Assembly (NCBI RefSeq): GCF_026151205.1 | Contig: NC_087073.1 | Location: 8,161,411 to 8,225,410, forward strand | Direction of reading: 5' to 3' | DNA: 64,000 bases | From: Bolinopsis microptera | Lineage: Eukaryota > Ctenophora > Tentaculata > Lobata > Bolinopsidae | Shown here: in pieces, positions 1-9,656 of the stretch | Numbering within the stretch: position 1 is the first letter of the stretch | Layout: every line of letters begins with the position of its first letter | Position numbers and translations under genes: made by a program | Notes under the pieces: generated by a model | Database searches by the model: none | What the model was told of the DNA's origin: nothing | Seen by the model: the letters and a program-made list of their open reading frames with translations, nothing else

Positions 1-1925
1 TTAAACCAGGTTAAAGCAATGCCACCAATTCCATAATATGCCAATTTTTGAAGTAATATTTCATGATTCACTGTGTCAAAGGCCTTCTTAAGATCAAGAA
101 AGATGATTCCTGGTTTATAAGACTTAGATTTACTCATATATATTTCGTCCATCAGATCGTACATCAGATAAGTTGTGGAGTGATTTTTCCGAAAGCCATA
201 TTGATGCCGGATGAAAAGTTTGTTCTCTTCCATGAAATCAGTGAGTTGCTTGCCGAAGTATTCTATAAGTTTTCCTATAAGTGGAAGGATGGATATTGGC
301 CTGTAATTATTAGGATCATCTTTCATTCCTGCCTTATGGATGGGAGTTACTCTAGCTTTTTTACAAAGGGTTGGTACAACACCTGTATTAAGGCTCAGAT
401 TGACAATGTGGGTCAGTGGCTCAACTATGTGTGGTACAGCTTGCTTAAGTAAAAATAGAGGCACATTGTCATATGAGGCCTTGTCATTCTTGAGCGTTTC
501 GACATACATTAGGATATCAGTTTCATTTATTTCTTGGAATCTATCAAATGAGATATTAGAAGTTCTAGGAGGTAAAAAATCAGTAAAACTAACTCTTTCA
601 ATATTGGGGGCCTGATTTTGTAATCTTGATCCAACATTTGCGAAATGAAAGTTAAATAGCTCAGGATCATTCTCATTGGTAGTTTGACAATTAGTTGTAC
701 CAGGGGTCATATTTGATGCCAGTTTGATAGTTTTCCATATCCCTTTAAGATCATTCTTGGCACTTTTAACTTGTAGATCATCGATTACATTAGCCTTTTT
801 GCAGGTTTTAGCTAATTTATTTCTAATATTTCTCTGAATCTTGTAGCAATCCCAGGCCTCATTACACTTTATACATTTGCTACATGTACCACATTCATTG
901 CAATTTCCATTGTCTCTCTTATCCTTCTTTTTACGGAATTTCTTTAGAAGAAAATGTGTATGATTAATGGCATTTAAAAGTTCAGTAGAAGGTTTATGTA
1001 TGAACTTTTCATGCCTTTCTATGGTCTTGCAAGGGAAGAAGGTTGCATATGCCTGTTCAATATGATGACAAAGGCCAGCAGTGATAGCTTCAACATCTGT
1101 ACTTTCCAATAGTGGACTGTAATCAGAACAGGTATCTAGATAGTCTAAGAATTGTTTAACATTACGTTTACAATGATTTCTAATTTCAACCTTCTCAAAT
1201 TTAGGAGCTATAGGTACTTTACAATCTATCTCACACATAATAGCTTGATGATCTCCTATACGTTCATCAAGAACAGAAGATTGGACAAAATCTGCATAAC
1301 AGTTAGTGAATATTACATCAATAGTAGTCTGGGTAAAATTGTCTCCACGTTTAGCAACTCTAGTTATCCCTTGAATGGTTTGAACTAAATTGTAACATCT
1401 CAAGGTCATATCTAATTTTTTGTACTGGGTGGATGAGATATTATTCTGGTCAATGTTTATATCCCCAATCCAGATAACCTTTTTCCCATTCAATTTTTTC
1501 ATGCAAAAATGAATGTATTCAATAAAGTTATCAACACTGCAATAATTTCCAGAGCGATAGAAGCAGCAAACATTGATCTTGCTATTCTTAAGCTTCACCC
1601 ATAATGCTTCAATGTTATCAAGCTTACTATCCATAACTAATTCTGTGTAAGCTAGTTTTTTGTTTATCATTAAGCCACAACCACCCCTAGAACTGTTTGG
1701 CCTGTCGCATCGCATAAGGTTGAAGGAGGAAGGAATATTTATGGTGTCTGTGTCAATAGTATCATTAAGATTCATCTCATTTAGGGAAAGTATGTCTAAT
1801 TTATGATCTCTAATAAGTTGGGAAAGTTCATTACTTTTAGCTAAATTGAGAAGCCCTCCTTGAATGTTACAATGACCAATGCAGAGGTTGTGAAACCTAT
1901 CAGCTGCATTATTAAAATTTGTCAT
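1..1925 (-). CDS. LINE ORF2: APE endonuclease plus reverse transcriptase (3' end outside window)
   Basis: Open for 641 codons from an ATG at 1925, with an in-frame TGA 18 nt upstream, to the window edge. Residues 10-235 are an APE-type endonuclease: catalytic Glu in LSLNEMN (E50), GDIN (D155, N157), TTIDVIF (D203) and GDH (D225-H226; the usual SDH serine is Gly). Residues 342-360 hold a cysteine ladder, CxxCxxCxxCxxC plus one more Cys. RT motifs follow: [21 protein letters not shown] and [11 protein letters not shown], the last carrying the first catalytic Asp. The YxDD box would lie past position 1. It nicks target DNA and copies the element RNA there. Confidence 0.88.
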
Positions 1926-2080
1926 CTTGTGAATCTTATTAATTCACAATGGAATGAATAAAAGTTGTAAAGTTGTGTTTAAACTAAAAAACAGAATAAA
2001 AGCAGGTTGTATTTGTCTGGATGTCGTACTGTAAAAATAAAACTGATGGTAGGAGTGTTATGTCAGTATTCAGCAGTATT

Positions 2081-3733
2081 CTAATGGTGTGCATGATACT
2101 TCAAGTGCCTTGCTAATTTAACTATGCCATAATCATTGAGATGGACATTATCCTCTCCATAACTACTAAAAAATGACGATTTTCTAAAGCCTTTCTTATC
2201 ACTAAACAAGAAACGATTTGTCTCGGTTGAGAGCAGTTTTACATAGGTGTATTTTCTTTGCAGATTTGATATACACTCATTGATATCAGTTATAACCTTG
2301 TTTCTGGAGAAACTCTCCCGAGGTAATAAGTTAACAATTTTAATATCAGCTCCAGGTGCCCACTTGTGAAGGAAAAGTACAAGTTTTTCAATACAATTGT
2401 TTGTAAAGTCAAGAGCTCTAGCATCACCAGAAAAACTATCAGGGCACAGAAGTTTAGTCCTCATGTTGCGAGGGCTGTTCAGGATAGAGTCCACGTCATT
2501 TGTACCACACATAAGTACAATGCTTTTCACATTATTGGTATTAAGAGTGTCTTTTCTTACATCTGATTGAAACCGTTCATTGATTGCATTGGCTGTGGCA
2601 CCAGGGTAGCTGAATACATGTGCCTCATGATGTTTGGACGATAGCTTTTCTCCCTCTAATTTGGAGAACATACTAGAGCTAATGTAGACACACAAAGATT
2701 TACCAGAATGTTCTATTGATCTAGTTTTAGGGACCGAGGGTTCAGTGTTCTTAACTTGACTGGAAACATCAGACAGAGTAGATAAGGTTGCGCTGCCATC
2801 AATTAGGCGCAGAGTAATGCTTATTCTCATGGTTTCAGACTTGTCCTGGATGAGGCTGTGTTCAAAGCTGGTCTGGGATTGTCTGGTCATATTCATTATG
2901 TCACCATGGGAGAGGGTGAGGTCAGCAATATGAGCTCTAAGTTTGGATCTGAAGCTTAGGACTCTAGTAGCCCCTAAAGAGATGGTGGAGATCATGGAGC
3001 CTGGTAAAATTGACCTCTCGTCATCCGAGTGAAAGGGAATTCCTTGCTGACCATTTCTATACTTGGTAATCATAGCACTATTGAATTTCAACTTTGGGAA
3101 CTGTGATCGTAAGCGTTCTAAAATAGACTTTAGGTATGGATTGTCTGCTACTGGCCTTGTGTTATGAAAGCCTCCATTGTAAGCGTAGGGAAAGTCCCCG
3201 TAATATGCAACTGCCCTATTCTCAAACTTATGAGTATAGTGGGTTTCTATATCTAACTTGGCAGTGTCAACAAACTGAAAAACTCCTCGACTCAAATCTT
3301 GGTATGGATTGATAGAGTTGGTCACATCATTGTCACCATTTACAGAGTGTTTGGGATTTTCCAAATTGATAATTTCTGCTGAATGTTCACTGTCTTCTGC
3401 TAATTTGGATAGCTCTTGGGTTAACTCAGAAACAAGATGCGAGGATGACCTATTACTGAGGGGAACATTGATAGAATGTTCACAGTGATCAGGTACCTGG
3501 GGCAACACAGGGATAAGTGAACCATCGCTGAGGGGAACTTTGAGTGCACTGTCACTTTCTGATAATTGTTTATAGAGAAAAGAAATTTGCCGACGAAGAC
3601 TATCATTCTCTCTTAATAGAGTTAAACAATTTGAACATTTATCAGTAGGACAAGAGCCGTTGCTGGGGAATTTAACAGAATTCCCTCGATATCTCAGATT
3701 GTAATGTCTTGAGCCAACTGGTATTCTAGACAT
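2081..3733 (-). CDS. LINE ORF1: AlkB-like 2OG-Fe(II) dioxygenase fused to SGNH esterase
   Basis: 550 aa. Residues 28-60 have a CxxC pair followed by a short helical stretch. Residues 150-312 match an AlkB fold: iron ligands H235 and D237 in FHSDDER, then PGSMISTISLGATR, the distal His H292 in FEHSL, and the 2-oxoglutarate Arg pair R303/R309 in RISITLR, so the catalytic set is complete. Residues 345-550 match an SGNH hydrolase: Ser near 352-354 (YISSSM), G378 (YPGAT), G410 and N412 (CGTND), and D528/H531 (DNVHLND). Esterase domains are known in CR1-like ORF1 proteins; AlkB-type enzymes remove alkyl groups from nucleic acids. What the dioxygenase does for the element is unknown: protecting element RNA or cDNA from methylation is one guess. 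Confidence 0.85.
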   Translation of the reverse strand: MSRIPVGSRHYNLRYRGNSVKFPSNGSCPTDKCSNCLTLLRENDSLRRQISFLYKQLSESDSALKVPLSDGSLIPVLPQVPDHCEHSINVPLSNRSSSHLVSELTQELSKLAEDSEHSAEIINLENPKHSVNGDNDVTNSINPYQDLSRGVFQFVDTAKLDIETHYTHKFENRAVAYYGDFPYAYNGGFHNTRPVADNPYLKSILERLRSQFPKLKFNSAMITKYRNGQQGIPFHSDDERSILPGSMISTISLGATRVLSFRSKLRAHIADLTLSHGDIMNMTRQSQTSFEHSLIQDKSETMRISITLRLIDGSATLSTLSDVSSQVKNTEPSVPKTRSIEHSGKSLCVYISSSMFSKLEGEKLSSKHHEAHVFSYPGATANAINERFQSDVRKDTLNTNNVKSIVLMCGTNDVDSILNSPRNMRTKLLCPDSFSGDARALDFTNNCIEKLVLFLHKWAPGADIKIVNLLPRESFSRNKVITDINECISNLQRKYTYVKLLSTETNRFLFSDKKGFRKSSFFSSYGEDNVHLNDYGIVKLARHLKYHAHH

Positions 3734-3988
3734 AGTTTATCACAAAAAGATGCTACTGTTCGAAATTTAGTTAATGATTACAGTACCTTTGTAGCACTCC
3801 GGAGGATAAGGATAAGTGATGTCTGATAATCTTTAGGTGATAGATGGGAGTAAACTGCTTTAAAAACCGATGTCTGATAGTCCTTAGGATGTCTTTAAGA
3901 TAAATTTATCGTGCAACAACCATTTACATTGACATACAACCTGTAATGGTCGTTACATTTACCGAGGCATTAGTTCCCACTGGGGGTC

Positions 3989-4030
3989 CTCAAATTATTT
4001 GTTATATAGTAGTGTTGAAAGTATTAAAAC
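3989..4030 (-). other. 42-nt spliced-leader-like tag, copy A (5' end of LINE)
   Basis: On the minus strand the tag runs from GTTTTAATAC to AAATAATTTGAG. The same 42 nt occur at 57851-57892 and 28898-28939, and a 44-nt variant at 30377-30420. Flanks differ on both sides in every copy. Here the tag is the first sequence of the LINE, about 255 nt before ORF1. Best reading: a trans-spliced leader that was reverse transcribed with the LINE RNA. Confidence 0.6.
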
Positions 4031-4268
4031 TTTTTGTTTTATTTGTCATTATACCCTTCCCATTGACATGACCGAAGACCAGTAATCAATATTAAGCACA
4101 TTGTAACGCATATTGTACTTTGTAATTAACACAGATGTGTGGATTGTGGACTAGACTAGATACACTGTGGACACAGAAGGCTGCTCATCGCGAGGAAGGT
4201 TTTTCAAACAGCTCAAAACCTTATCGCTAGATTATAGCTGTTTGAGTACAGTTAAGAATCCACTATTT
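4031..4268. other. gene-free stretch beside the LINE
   Basis: AT-rich unique-looking sequence between the 5' end of the LINE and the MITE. It may hold the end of the malectin-like gene, but I found no convincing exon here. Confidence 0.4.
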
Positions 4269-4793
4269 GGGGGAGGGGGGGCTGACCATATTTAAGTATA
4301 TTAAAATGTAGGTTTTTCCCGATTTAGGGGCGGGGATATACTTTAATATACTTTAACACATCCCTGTCTTTTTAGAGGCCTAGATCAAAAATCTGTCCAT
4401 AATAAGCTTGAAATGCAATTCTTAATCGATTCCAAAAGTTTCATGCAAAAATATTGAAAACTGATGGAGTTATTTCAATTTTAATGAAGTCATTTTGGCT
4501 AGTATCCCGAACCGGTATATTATATGCAATTTTGTTCGTGGAGGTCTTTTTACTTGGTATCCACTATTCAACAGATATTGAGCTATATAAAGTTAGCCTC
4601 ATTCAAACATATTGAAATTTGATCGAATTTTGGGCGAAAGCTTTCAAATTTGGTGCGTATGCCCAAATATGGGCATATGGTTTAAAGCTCATATTAAAGT
4701 ATATTAAAATATAGGTTTTCCCGATTTAGGGGAGGGGATTATATACTTTAATATGGTCAGCCATGGTAAGCCCCCCCCCCCCCCCCCCCTCCC
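4269..4793. mobile_element. foldback MITE with poly-G/poly-C ends
   Basis: The left end reads G-run then CTGACCATATT and the right end is AATATGGTCAG, a few bases, then a C-run of about 20 plus CTCCC. Each arm is also nearly palindromic: a TATATTAAAAT...CCCGATTTAGGGG module flanked by ATATACTTTAATAT occurs near 4300-4355 and again near 4690-4755. No ORF. It lies just inside the intron after the last visible exon of the malectin-like gene. No clear target duplication seen. Confidence 0.55.
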
Positions 4794-4813
4794 AATAATA
4801 ATGAATGGCTTAC

Positions 4814-7612
4814 CATTGAGTGTTCCCTCGTAAAGCACCAAAGCGTTTACTTTAGGATTATCGTATGGAGTCTGAAATGAAAATATGTGTAACATAATTG
4901 TGGACACCTGCTGAGTCTGTAGGTATTTAACTAAAATTTTCAAGGACATTCGCCGGAGAGATGATCTTCCCTTTTGTGGCAGTATCGTTATATATGGAGA
5001 GCAGGCACATGCTTCATATTCATGAACCTAACAAAATGGCAGCCTCAAAACGGTTTACACACCTTTACAAACTCTACATGAAGGTTACCGTCGAATGCGA
5101 GCTTGTAGTCTCCAATAAGTAAGGAACTTTCGTGTATTTTGAAGGGCACATATTCGTCGTGTGCAGTACCGAAACCAACCTGTCAAAATATTTAATGTGA
5201 GGAATTGTGAGGTTCACATATTACGCTGAGAGGGAGGGGTGGGGTTTCTAAATGATTACGCTAGTGTAAGTTTAACACAATAGCTATGTATAGAACTTAT
5301 TACTGAGGGGGGAGGGTTAAAAATATGCCCAAAAGTGATTACGTAAGTGATTACGTAAGTGTAAAACTATGGCTTAATAGTACACGCAAATGATGCGAAC
5401 ACTGACTATGTACAGCCGAAAACAGTATGATTAACTGATTACGATGGAAACGTTAAAACATTTCCAGGGAATGCACTGTCCATCTACTGATATATAGTTA
5501 TTGGATATATGGTTTTATCGCAAACTAGTGCACGCCTGAGCTTCCAAAACCAAAATATGTACTGTAATGGCCGCTCTAACGTAAGCTTGGGGCGTAAATT
5601 TTGGTTTAATAGAGAGTAGAGTCTAAAATAGAATTGCTTTTAAAAATAAAATTACGTACCTTGTTGAAGATATCTAGTCCCACTATGACAGGCTGATTGT
5701 TCATCTTTATATCAAACACCTGAAAACAACACATTTGAGTTGCTTACTTCAGGGCATAGGCATATTGGGTGTAGGAAGCGGTGGAAAGGGGATCCCTCCT
5801 AAGATGTCAGAGGGGGATAAATACCTTCCCCCACGCCCCTTGATTCAACATTGATTTTAATTTTCAGTTGAAGTTAAATGGTAAGAGCGGCACTTGCTGC
5901 CTGCACTGCCTATTAGTAAGCTAACACCAGAACCAACTCTCCTATGACTGTCTGTTTATCTAACTGTCTAACTTGCAGTCCAAATTTGCATTCCTCAGTG
6001 CTAAAATTCATTCCTCCTTAAAACAAATTGTCCAGGTTGTCCCTCCTTGCAGTTAGCATCCTATTTGAAATTGATTACTGTATATTGAATATGTAAGCAT
6101 ATTTCCTAAACGAAAATCGGTCGATTTATCAATTCACCATGCCAGATTTCAATTTTGAAATTTTCCGAGTGACAGCAATATGCATCCCTTTTTCAAACCA
6201 CACTTATTTCGCAAGAACTGCTGGCAGGTAATATATATATTATGCATTTAAATCCTCATTATTTGAATCGGTCTTGAGACTGTGCCTCAAAAAAGTTTTG
6301 CCTAAGGCGAACTGTTCACCATTGCTGTCCTTCTGCCTTCTGCCAGTAAATTTGACAGGATGCAGCTTTCATGAGCTTTAACTTTTTTACAAGCATGATT
6401 TGTCAAACATCATAGAAGCGCAAACTTTGCCAATCAAAATTTCTCAAAATATTCTCCTCCTCTCCTCACAATGTTATGTAGGCCTGTTACAAGGTTAGTA
6501 AGAGCAGTTGTTTTCTTACATCAATTTCGCAGGATGATCGGATGGGGACAGATTACGTCACTTCTTCTCGATATTATGCCCAGGTAGCAGATACATTTAC
6601 TACCTTGCCGTATGCAAAACATTTGTGCAACTTAAACAAAACCAAGGAAAATCTTACTAATTGCCAGGGTCAAGGAAACAAGTAAGACTTTCTTCTGTAA
6701 AAGGTCCCCTTAGATCTAAGATCTTCTCAGGAGAAAGGAATGTGTAAGATAATCTGTGGTAACAGGATATTGTGGTGTGTATTAATACACTACGCACTAT
6801 TATACAAGTTACACTCAAGTTACATACCTTCTGGTTGGGTGATCTGAAGTACACCTCGCTGAATTTGAGGTTGAGTACATAGTTGCCATTCTTTGAAATG
6901 GGAATATCATACCCAAAACTATCATGGTAGTACCTCTCTGTTTGGTACAATATTCTGTCCTGAAAGTAATTAAAGGATGTAACATGGAGAATGCAGCCCG
7001 ATGTATGAATGTACAGTACTGAGATTTTAGATTTCTGAGACAGACGAAAATTTTTGTGAATTTAATTAAGAATAGTAGCTTGAAAAAGGAATCGAAAGGC
7101 TATGTATCTTTCTAAAGATAGGCTTCCCTAGACCTAAGTTTCGACCATTAAGCTATAAATCTTGATAATGGCGGATATCAGATATGTGAACCATCATTTT
7201 ACTGATACGTGAAAACGATTACCTATCAGCTCCCAGTTATTGAATCCCAGAATCATTGTCACGTGTTTCAGAAAATATAATTTATGACTGAACCAGTATC
7301 CTGATCTCTAAATCGGTAATTTGTCTTCCCTAGACGTTTCGGCCAGTCCTCGCGGACTGAAACTAAGATAATTATCTAAATTTCAGACTTAATGGTTCAG
7401 AATGTTCTAAATACCTGAGGATGAACTCGGGCAAGTAGAGGAACATGTGTGACACCGTGATCAGACGCAACTCCTGGCATGTCAGAAATGTCTGGTTTAT
7501 ACATGACCCCATCCACTCCTCGGTGAGAACCTCCACCAGCGTTCAGTGCCCATATTGCTCGTGCTCCGTCACTGCCTCTTACTAACAGCCATGATAACAA
7601 CAAATATAACAT
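4814..7612 (-). CDS. malectin-like ER lectin, five exons, 3' end missing
   Basis: Minus-strand exons 7612-7415, 6959-6828, 5719-5660, 5179-5063 and 4871-4814, all with AG/GT borders and consistent phases. The first exon starts with a hydrophobic signal peptide (MLYLLLSWLLV) and then AIWALNAGGGSHRGVDGVMY. Exon 2 gives LYQTERYYHDSFGYDIPI and KFSEVYF, exon 3 VGLDIFNK, exon 4 VGFGTAHDEYVPF and LHVEFVK, exon 5 DNPKVNALVLYEGT. These follow vertebrate malectin through the whole carbohydrate-binding domain; malectin binds diglucosylated high-mannose N-glycans in the ER. The acidic linker and C-terminal membrane anchor are not found: exon 5 ends in a good donor (GGTAAG), directly followed by a MITE and then a LINE, so the last exon(s) probably lie left of position 1. 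Introns (for example 5220-5400) carry G-rich repeat debris. Confidence 0.85.
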
Positions 7613-7824
7613 CCTACAATTATTGTAAATTTATGCTGTGTTGGTTTCATTTACTTCGATTTAATCGCACATAATTCAGATCTTTAGATTTCGGCCGGAT
7701 GAAAAATTTGAAAGCTTTACACATCGGTTAATTTAGAATGAGATTTTTTAGCAATCTTTTCTTACAATTCATGAATACAGTTCAGTAAAACAATTTTTTC
7801 TAAAATAAATTAAAAAATTACATA

Positions 7825-8187
7825 TTACTCGTCGACATCAACATTCTGAGTTGTCAATCCTTTGAAATTTTCCACTCCTTCAACGACTGTGACCAAGGTG
7901 TATAACTTGTGGATTGAGTCTTCATCTTCGTTACGCTTCCTTGCGAGCCTTACTCGTACTCTGAAGGGAACATTCTTTACACCCTTGTGCCAGACGTGTT
8001 TGTTGAGACGAGTATCTATTCTGACATCGGGAGTTCCCATCATCTTCTCAGCAAACTTCTTGATCTCTTTTACTGCACGAGGTGCCCTGCGTTTGAAACC
8101 AATTCCATGGATTCTTTTGTGCAGGTTAATCGTGTATTCTCTGGTTACAACCTGGGAGATAGCTTGTCTTTTCTTGTCGTTGGCCAT
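7825..8187 (-). CDS. RPL31: 60S ribosomal protein eL31
   Basis: 120 aa in one exon, close to the usual ~125. Contains [48 protein letters not shown] and [14 protein letters not shown], the diagnostic run of eL31, a protein of the large ribosomal subunit near the exit tunnel. The start is the only ATG before the conserved region. A strong acceptor (TTCTCAG, AG at 8195-8194) lies 6 nt before the ATG, so the 5' UTR in the mature mRNA is either joined by cis-splicing or supplied by a trans-spliced leader. Lack of introns could mean a retrocopy, but the frame is intact and conserved. Confidence 0.95.
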
Positions 8188-8195
8188 GACCTACT

Positions 8196-8984
8196 GAGAA
8201 TAATATCGTTATTATTATTATTATCGAACTTAACACATATCTGAGGTAGAACATATTAAATGGAAATATCTTAAATACTTTAAAACGTAAAACTAAGACC
8301 GTTACAATATCACAAACATTAACACCCTTCAGATGAAGGTAGCTGGGACAGATGTTTAATTCGAAACCACCCCGAACATTTCATGCATCAGTGTAAATAC
8401 TAAATAAAGGTTTAATCCTGTGCCTGGGCCAAAATTATAACGATACAAGTAAGGTGTAGTCAAAATTATAACGATACAAGTTAGGACTTAGGTGTAGTCT
8501 CTTACTGTCAAGGAATCTAAATAAAAAATGTAGGTGTAGTTGCACCGACATTAGAAGTGACAGGAACCTGGAGATAATTCTGAGCAAAAAATATATGGTA
8601 AAAGCTGTCAATTTTAAAAACCCGAAATGATCAAGAAAAATAGAGGCGACTCATCACTTCACGATTAAAGTGAATCTCGACTTTGAAGAAAAGCTTACAA
8701 TCAGGGCAAAACCGTAAGGCCGGCAAATTTACATTAAAATTTCATCTTTTGATTAACATCTGACATAATCTGACAAATTCATTGAGCATCTTAAAAGACG
8801 ATTTAGATTTTACCTTGTGAGATTATACTTCTGCACCAGGTAGATGAAATTTCAAAAGGTAAGGTCGAGGAGGTTTAAAGAGGCTTCCTGCTTCAAGAAC
8901 AAAGAAAAGAACAAAGAAAGTTTTAATTGAGCCCTATTAAGGCAGGAAGGGATGAGCTCAGAAGAGCTCAAAAACGGAATAGAA
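8196..8984. other. gene-free stretch with a short tandem duplication
   Basis: No supported gene. AAAATTATAACGATACAAGT occurs twice in tandem (about 8434-8453 and 8463-8482), followed in each copy by a GGTGTAGTC block. Toward the right end the sequence grades into LINE remnants. Confidence 0.4.
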
Positions 8985-9656
8985 CTGCTTGTCTGGGATA
9001 CTAGGCCACGGCGACTACGTGGAGACCTCATAGAAGCTTTTAAAGAAACAAGTGGTTTGACTGATTGAAATAAATTTTCGTGCACATACAGAATGAATGA
9101 TTATGGATCGGGATGTTTAGAATTAGCAGATCCGGTCTTATTCTTGTTTCAAGCGACAGATGTAGTAGTAGAAGTTTAACTAAAATCAAGAATATCCAGA
9201 AGTCTTTTCTCCCAGAGCGAGTTATTCCATATTGGAACAAACGAAGAAGAAAAGAATATTCAAACAATATACACATAATATAGCAATGGCCAATTGGCTG
9301 AAGTGTCCTATAAGGTCATGGCCTGAACAAACAATTTTTTTTAAATAGTCAAGTGATGCTAAAGCAGAGCACAAATGTGTAATAAGTTAATAGATTGGAA
9401 CAAACTCCCTCCGGACGTCAAGAACTCTGTGACAGTTCTAGGCTTTAAAATTAAATTAGAAGGATTTAAGAAAGATATGATTTCTAAAAGTATTACAGAT
9501 GATTGCTTTTTTTGGAATGTTTCTAATGAAGTTTTAATAAGAATTGAGGGAGCCAGTTATGTTAGTAATAAAGAGAAACATAACGATAATCTTTGGTTTC
9601 ATCCTTATGTGGCGAAGAAGCGATTTATAAATCTTTATTCCGTTTTGGAAAATTAA
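8985..9656 (+). pseudogene. CR1-like LINE tail (RT C-terminus), split by an insertion
   Basis: Decayed 3' end of a LINE ORF2. RPRRLRGDLIEAFKETSGLTD is followed by a stop, then in another frame SLTKIKNIQKSFLPERVIPYW, and after a 151-bp insertion NKLPPDVKNSVTVLGFKIKL and HPYVAKKRFINLY up to a stop at 9656. The order 'RRxRGDxIE ... RVIxxWNxLP ... F...L' is the standard end of CR1/jockey-like RT proteins. A related remnant lies at 60110-60400. Confidence 0.7.
9243..9393. mobile_element. 151-bp short interspersed element with 12-bp target duplication, copy 1
   Basis: Splits the LINE frame exactly at the Trp-Asn-Lys codons. ATTGGAACAAAC occurs on both sides (9231-9242 and 9394-9405). The inserted sequence from 9252 to 9393 recurs inverted at 18459-18594. 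A 12-bp duplication of irregular sequence suggests insertion by LINE machinery. No tRNA-type boxes seen. Confidence 0.7.

Follow-up and report, generated by a model that had tools for sequence, protein, structure and literature searches.

We analysed a 64,000-nucleotide stretch of the ctenophore Bolinopsis microptera (contig NC_087073.1, positions 8,161,411 to 8,225,410 of the forward strand; hereafter the window) and found at its start the 5' part of a long interspersed nuclear element (LINE) whose first open reading frame (ORF1) fuses an AlkB-type dioxygenase to an SGNH hydrolase. The case is carried by the domains themselves, by the match of the predicted model to the AlkB fold, by conserved metal ligands and arginines, by selection and by copies that are still intact. 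LINE ORF1 proteins are usually viewed as RNA packaging and chaperone proteins. We hold with about even confidence that this protein (ORF1p) would coat the element RNA and oxidatively strip from it methyl groups of the 1-methyladenine (m1A) or 3-methylcytosine (m3C) type that stall the reverse transcriptase of ORF2. If true, a conserved oxidative demethylase site in a large ORF1 family would mean that some LINEs service the chemistry of their own template, which opens a direct test of the idea that methylated bases in transposon RNA hold back reverse transcription in vivo. The features of the copy, in window coordinates, are the following.

1..4031, minus strand: LINE copy, 5' part (boundaries from 11 other loci aligned to locus L021)
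3734..4031, minus strand: 5' untranslated region, from the copy boundary up to the ORF1 ATG
2081..3733, minus strand: ORF1, 550 aa, predicted coiled coil, AlkB and SGNH in that order (open frame, profiles, fold model)
3545..3634, minus strand: predicted long helix, read as coiled coil, aa 34-63 (AlphaFold2 model)
2798..3307, minus strand: AlkB-type 2-oxoglutarate (2OG) and Fe(II)-dependent dioxygenase domain, aa 143-312, with H235, D237, E239, H292, R303 and R309 (profile, fold, alignment)
2084..2701, minus strand: SGNH hydrolase domain, aa 345-550, with S354, G378, N412, D528 and H531 (profile, fold, copies)
3..1925, minus strand: ORF2, aa 1-641 of 990, covering the APE-type endonuclease and the beginning of the reverse transcriptase (whole ORF2 in L021)
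1795..1845, minus strand: junction zone of families A and B (ORF2 nearly identical downstream, ORF1 66% identical upstream)

The preliminary description of this DNA had proposed the AlkB-SGNH fusion and had treated a failed AlkB profile search as grounds for giving it up. The Pfam profile 2OG-FeII_Oxy_2 (PF13532) matches ORF1 residues 183-309 clearly, with E 1.1e-18 and 68.6 bits (cut-off 31.2). In profile comparison the domain matches ALKBH3 and ALKBH2 best, and structures of ALKBH2 and ALKBH3 are the best fold matches of its AlphaFold2 model, which has the AlkB fold; the ALKBH2 structure among them is bound to double-stranded DNA and the ALKBH3 structure to single-stranded DNA. In the esterase half, Lipase_GDSL_2 matches residues 366-536 at E 1.7e-4 and 22.6 bits, under its cut-off of 32.9, but the fold model supports SGNH. 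This fold with its Ser, Asn, Asp and His is that of the type IV (esterase) ORF1, and a search with the family profile finds the ZfL2-1 esterase 4c1b (E 0.0034). In the AlphaFold2 model, the helix of residues 34-63 stands upstream of the esterase as a predicted coiled coil. Type IV ORF1s are defined as having no further structured domain of nucleic-acid type, whereas here the AlkB domain is present.

The catalytic set that had been read by eye from the letters, HxD (H235, D237), H292 and R303/R309, was borne out by alignment against E. coli AlkB (L045). AlkB H131, D133 and H187 correspond to the metal ligands H235, D237 and H292; R204, T208 and R210 to R303, T307 and R309; and Y76, Y78 and Y122 to Y183, Y185 and Y225. 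At the D135 position ORF1 has E239, so the acid is kept. Two positions differ. N206 is replaced by S305, with Ser in 274 of 277 rows of the homologue alignment, and thus the full RxNxTxR signature is absent; N120 is T223 in the window, where the homologues have T in 139 and N in 111 of 278 rows. N206 and N120 of AlkB are likely contacts of 2OG, and FTO has Ser at the N206 position, yet is active. By fold and ligands we class the domain as AlkB-type and, because of the Ser at the N206 position, not as an orthologue of ALKBH2/3.

The catalytic residues are kept in other copies and homologues. Their loss in other copies would, by the preliminary description, have refuted its proposal, but we compared 27 open copies, and H235, D237, H292, R303 and R309 are present in every one, as are S354, G378, N412, D528 and H531. 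Of these copies, 19 belong to family A, counting the window copy and leaving out L010 because a stop interrupts its frame, and 8 belong to family B. In an alignment of 281 homologues plus the window, near-duplicates included, H235 and D237 occur in 278/278 rows with a letter, E239 in 277/278, and H292, R303 and R309 in 277/277, the remaining 4-5 rows being gapped at catalytic positions. These homologues were found by shared words, with about 8,000 best candidates scored per search, which favours conserved motifs; their whole-length identity to the window ORF1 goes down to about 18%. Both catalytic sets are complete in 206 of the first 229 rows, a count that also required one SGNH glycine; the corresponding figure for the whole alignment, 209 of 282 rows, is unreliable, one clade being poorly aligned in the SGNH part. 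An organism is named in the source of 12 homologues, and in each case it is Mnemiopsis leidyi.

Selection was estimated between families A and B with Nei-Gojobori counts (6 family A and 5 family B copies). The AlkB part has a nonsynonymous difference (pN) of 0.097 and a synonymous difference (pS) of 0.591, giving a dN/dS of 0.089 (bootstrap 0.044-0.152, two by two sequences). The SGNH part has a pN of 0.195 with saturated pS, and the N-terminal part of ORF1 a pN of 0.44; values of 0.000 for dN/dS in this comparison are artefacts of saturated synonymous sites. Comparisons among family A copies alone give 0.18 for AlkB and 0.59 for SGNH, both based on few changes.

The claim that the element frames are intact also stood. 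ORF1 is open over its 550 residues, and the 5' end is complete, lying at about window position 4031 in the alignment of 11 other loci, chosen from the best matches, to the window copy. The copy passes window base 1, and its 3' end, read from the genome, lies about 1.95 kb beyond, so that the full element measures about 5.98 kb. Nine of the 11 loci are 98.7-99.5% identical over nearly the whole element; of the other two, one is about 240 bases short at the 5' end and one aligns over 2.3 kb only. An ORF1 of 550 aa and an ORF2 of 990-991 aa are retained in 10 of 12 family A loci, and an ORF1 of 536 aa and an ORF2 of 991 aa in 4 of 8 family B loci. ORF2 contains APE endonuclease and reverse transcriptase domains with a FADD box, which makes the element an APE-type retrotransposon without long terminal repeats (non-LTR). 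Its 3' ends are TCAA/AATAAA-like tails, which presumably fit the CR1 or L2 clade. Clear target-site duplications were found in none of 12 loci, the longest word common to the flanks being 7 bases. Among the family A copies (L021-L032), the common AGTTTTAA is followed by 5'-terminal stretches of at least two kinds.

In the 264.65 Mb assembly that we searched, there are at least 82 ORF1 matches (79 of 810 candidates scored) and at least 151 PF13532 matches, host genes and Helitrons included (150 of 587 candidates scored), and many of the PF13532 matches listed sit in repeated frames of about 590-780 aa. Thus, the AlkB-SGNH ORF1 is a multi-copy family and not a single case. A third LINE (L043) has the same domain order and an ORF2 49% identical to that of the window element over 911 residues, and the Mnemiopsis gene models P0153 and P0155 combine AlkB with an APE or reverse transcriptase match. 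Some relatives start with a PHD-like finger, which is above the Pfam cut-off in P0126 only, at the PHD-variant cut-off in P0124 and below cut-off in P0128, P0172 and P0184, while P0221 has a SAP-like match below cut-off; further along, all these relatives have AlkB and an SGNH match. There are also many repeated SGNH frames of about 426-526 aa in the genome with no AlkB match among the matches listed for those scored candidates; these are possibly esterase-only LINE ORF1s, or have AlkB matches beyond those listed.

Families A and B are a clear example of LINEs exchanging an entire ORF1. Their ORF1s are only 66% identical (pS 0.70, pN 0.22), whereas their ORF2s are nearly identical from about codon 45, with a pS of 0.061 and a pN of 0.009 over the whole ORF2 (4 A and 4 B copies). 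The identity switches at window 1795-1845; in the 5' untranslated parts it is 78-82%. Therefore, judged from these sequence distances, two long-diverged AlkB-SGNH ORF1s now precede one recent ORF2. Such an exchange agrees with the reticulate evolution of ORF1 that has been described in CR1/L2 elements (PMC4120745). The window copy groups with P0004 in the AlkB tree (97/93) and with P0003 in the SGNH tree (100/99), which suggests that AlkB may have been exchanged within ORF1 without the rest of the protein, though the AlkB test is borderline (p 0.0545).

AlkB and SGNH also occur together in Helitrons of the same genome. A Helitron-type frame of 3388 aa in L041 (G000:C10:16872000-16881000, 2404-9000) contains, in this order, SGNH (8.3e-6, below cut-off), AlkB, DUF6570 and Helitron_like_N. 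The other Helitron frames were judged from match tables by contig, strand and frame length. On this basis, six listed AlkB matches share all three with one of 41 Helitron_like_N matches (C9 twice, C3, C10, C12 twice), six have SGNH upstream in a common frame (C9, C3, C10, C1, C12 twice), and two further ones (C9, C7) have SGNH upstream in a different frame. All three domains lie in one frame in three cases besides L041 (C9, C3, C12), and the C10 813-aa and C1 1012-aa frames have no Helitron_like_N among the matches listed. The Helitron order, SGNH before AlkB, is the reverse of the LINE order. The Helitron AlkB has Ser at the N206 position, as in the LINE, and the LINE AlkB profile scores 109 bits against it and 102 bits against phage AlkB, whereas the LINE SGNH profile has no match to Helitron SGNH at E 10. 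Because the LINE profile finds the Helitron AlkB and misses its SGNH, the two esterase halves may have been acquired separately; the tree bearing on a LINE origin of the Helitron AlkB joins two long branches. We speculate, with considerable doubt, that ctenophore elements paired AlkB and SGNH twice, as a mobile, exchangeable module that would repair single-stranded element RNA or DNA at membranes, a form of transposon self-repair.

As to how the fusion would work, ORF1p would multimerise through its predicted coiled coil and bind or coat the element RNA. The AlkB domain would then demethylate this RNA, or the newly made cDNA, either ahead of target-primed reverse transcription or while it proceeds; presumed m1A/m3C-type methyls on the template would otherwise stall the reverse transcription. 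The esterase would anchor the particle on membranes or lipids, a role proposed for ZfL2-1 ORF1p. AlkB would also supply the structured nucleic-acid-binding domain reported missing in esterase ORF1ps, while repairing the template. We infer that the substrate is RNA and not cDNA or another form of single-stranded DNA. The preliminary description had suggested that either m1A/m3C-type or host defence methylation is stripped; the former is better supported, by the ALKBH2/3 matches and the acid at E239, while removal of host defence methylation, which no result supports, is possible and not favoured. Researchers have found that m1A hinders the non-LTR reverse transcriptase of R2 and that AlkB lifts this hindrance, with a clear effect on 3' tRNA halves (PMC12140624), that AlkB restores read-through of a blocked template, and that its D135 contacts N6 of m1A, D135I leading to activity on N6-methyladenine (m6A) (PMC7968990). 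Human L1 benefits from m6A and is suppressed by ALKBH5 (PMC7873242). Because of the relief of R2 from m1A, the role of D135 and the benefit of L1 from m6A, we favour m1A/m3C template repair over m6A erasure. Several points weigh against template repair: the gain from AlkB with the R2 enzyme on intact tRNAs was modest (PMC12140624), the two positions that likely contact 2OG are changed, and AlkB is also found in Helitrons, which need no reverse transcription, so the common target of LINE and Helitron may be single-stranded DNA or mRNA instead.

The presence of AlkB in Helitrons, which are DNA elements with single-stranded intermediates, keeps a DNA substrate open for the LINE enzyme as well. 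AlkB would then repair m3C or m1A in new cDNA, at the opened target site or elsewhere in single-stranded DNA, with m3C made by host cytosine methyltransferases among the lesions. We consider this fairly unlikely: the DNA-bound ALKBH2 and ALKBH3 structures as closest folds agree with it, but the VFG motif, with which ALKBH2 probes duplex DNA and which human and host ALKBH2 have, is by eye without a counterpart in ORF1. Also in its favour, alkB2 is counted in the DNA methylation toolkit (PMC11294593); against it, ORF1 proteins are presumed to package element RNA (PMC3905857). An m6A eraser or other epitranscriptomic counter-defence has a precedent in the AlkB protein of an orchid Ty3/Gypsy element, which demethylates m6A in vitro (PMC9289625), and seems improbable here given the preference argued above. 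It is more improbable still that the AlkB fold was retained solely as a non-catalytic RNA-binding scaffold, as might suit esterase ORF1ps, which are without other structured RNA-binding domains (PMC3905857), and the change of two likely 2OG contacts. The metal ligands and both arginines, without substitution in 277-278 rows each, argue against a mere scaffold. Since 2OG oxygenases have many substrates and AlkB adjoins SGNH in most of the relatives compared, another hydroxylation target is conceivable, be it another base, a protein or a lipid released by the esterase domain, but this is the least probable reading; the best profile and fold matches, ALKBH2 and ALKBH3, are enzymes acting on nucleic acid bases, as their entry titles also state.

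With respect to the origin of the domain, we rejected a recent capture of the host ALKBH2. The host protein (L042) has human ALKBH2 as a match at 3.9e-60 and as its partner in the tree (99/97), and the four cellular and phage sequences lie on one side of a 99/100 branch with the LINE domains on the other; this tree carries warnings on long branches and on the letter make-up of two rows. A viral or phage origin was also rejected, as tblastn against phages gave three matches, two of them annotated AlkB, which cover roughly a quarter of the query at 30-33% identity, and none of the 127 stretches from a scan of viral contigs was confirmed as a relative. L044, an Acinetobacter phage MD-2021a record, has alkB beside an ada-like gene in a contig labelled phage and resembles a bacterial adaptive-response pair.

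Elsewhere in the window, a stretch of about 550 bp between inverted repeats with G and C runs (4258-4806), resembling a miniature inverted-repeat transposable element, lies directly upstream of the LINE 5' end. A 120-aa intronless frame at 7825-8187 on the minus strand resembles ribosomal protein L31e, as judged by eye only.

In the titles and abstract starts listed for the open-licence literature, with Repbase outside this scope, we found no account of an AlkB LINE ORF1 or an AlkB Helitron. The type IV ORF1 of elements such as zebrafish ZfL2-1 and CR1-like ones has a coiled coil followed by an SGNH esterase, upstream of an ORF2 with APE and reverse transcriptase; the window ORF1 has AlkB between its predicted coiled coil and the esterase. 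A survey of L2/CR1 elements places the esterase ORF1 type in vertebrate subgroups only (PMC4120745), a range that is here extended to the ctenophore Mnemiopsis leidyi, and esterases are also reported in the RTEX clade (PMC5408684). Like the PHD-containing ORF1s of CR1/L2, some relatives here begin with a PHD-like finger, but they add AlkB and an SGNH match, a combination absent from the ORF1 types in the available text of that survey (PMC4120745). Human ALKBH2 and ALKBH3 share the fold, metal ligands, arginines and DDE/DNE motif, but are stand-alone host repair enzymes, and the LINE family has Ser at N206. Bdelloid rotifer LTR elements have likewise captured an esterase, a GDSL type in ORF3, while "AlkB" is not a word in the available text (PMC5408684). 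The nearest published case is the orchid Ty3/Gypsy element Gypsy_Pa_2799, a retrotransposon that likewise encodes an AlkB protein, there with demonstrated activity; that element is a plant LTR element with AlkB of m6A type in a separate ORF, and the available text does not contain the word "esterase" (PMC9289625). Esterase domains in CR1-like ORF1s were thus already known, as the preliminary description had said, and it is their pairing with AlkB that is unusual.
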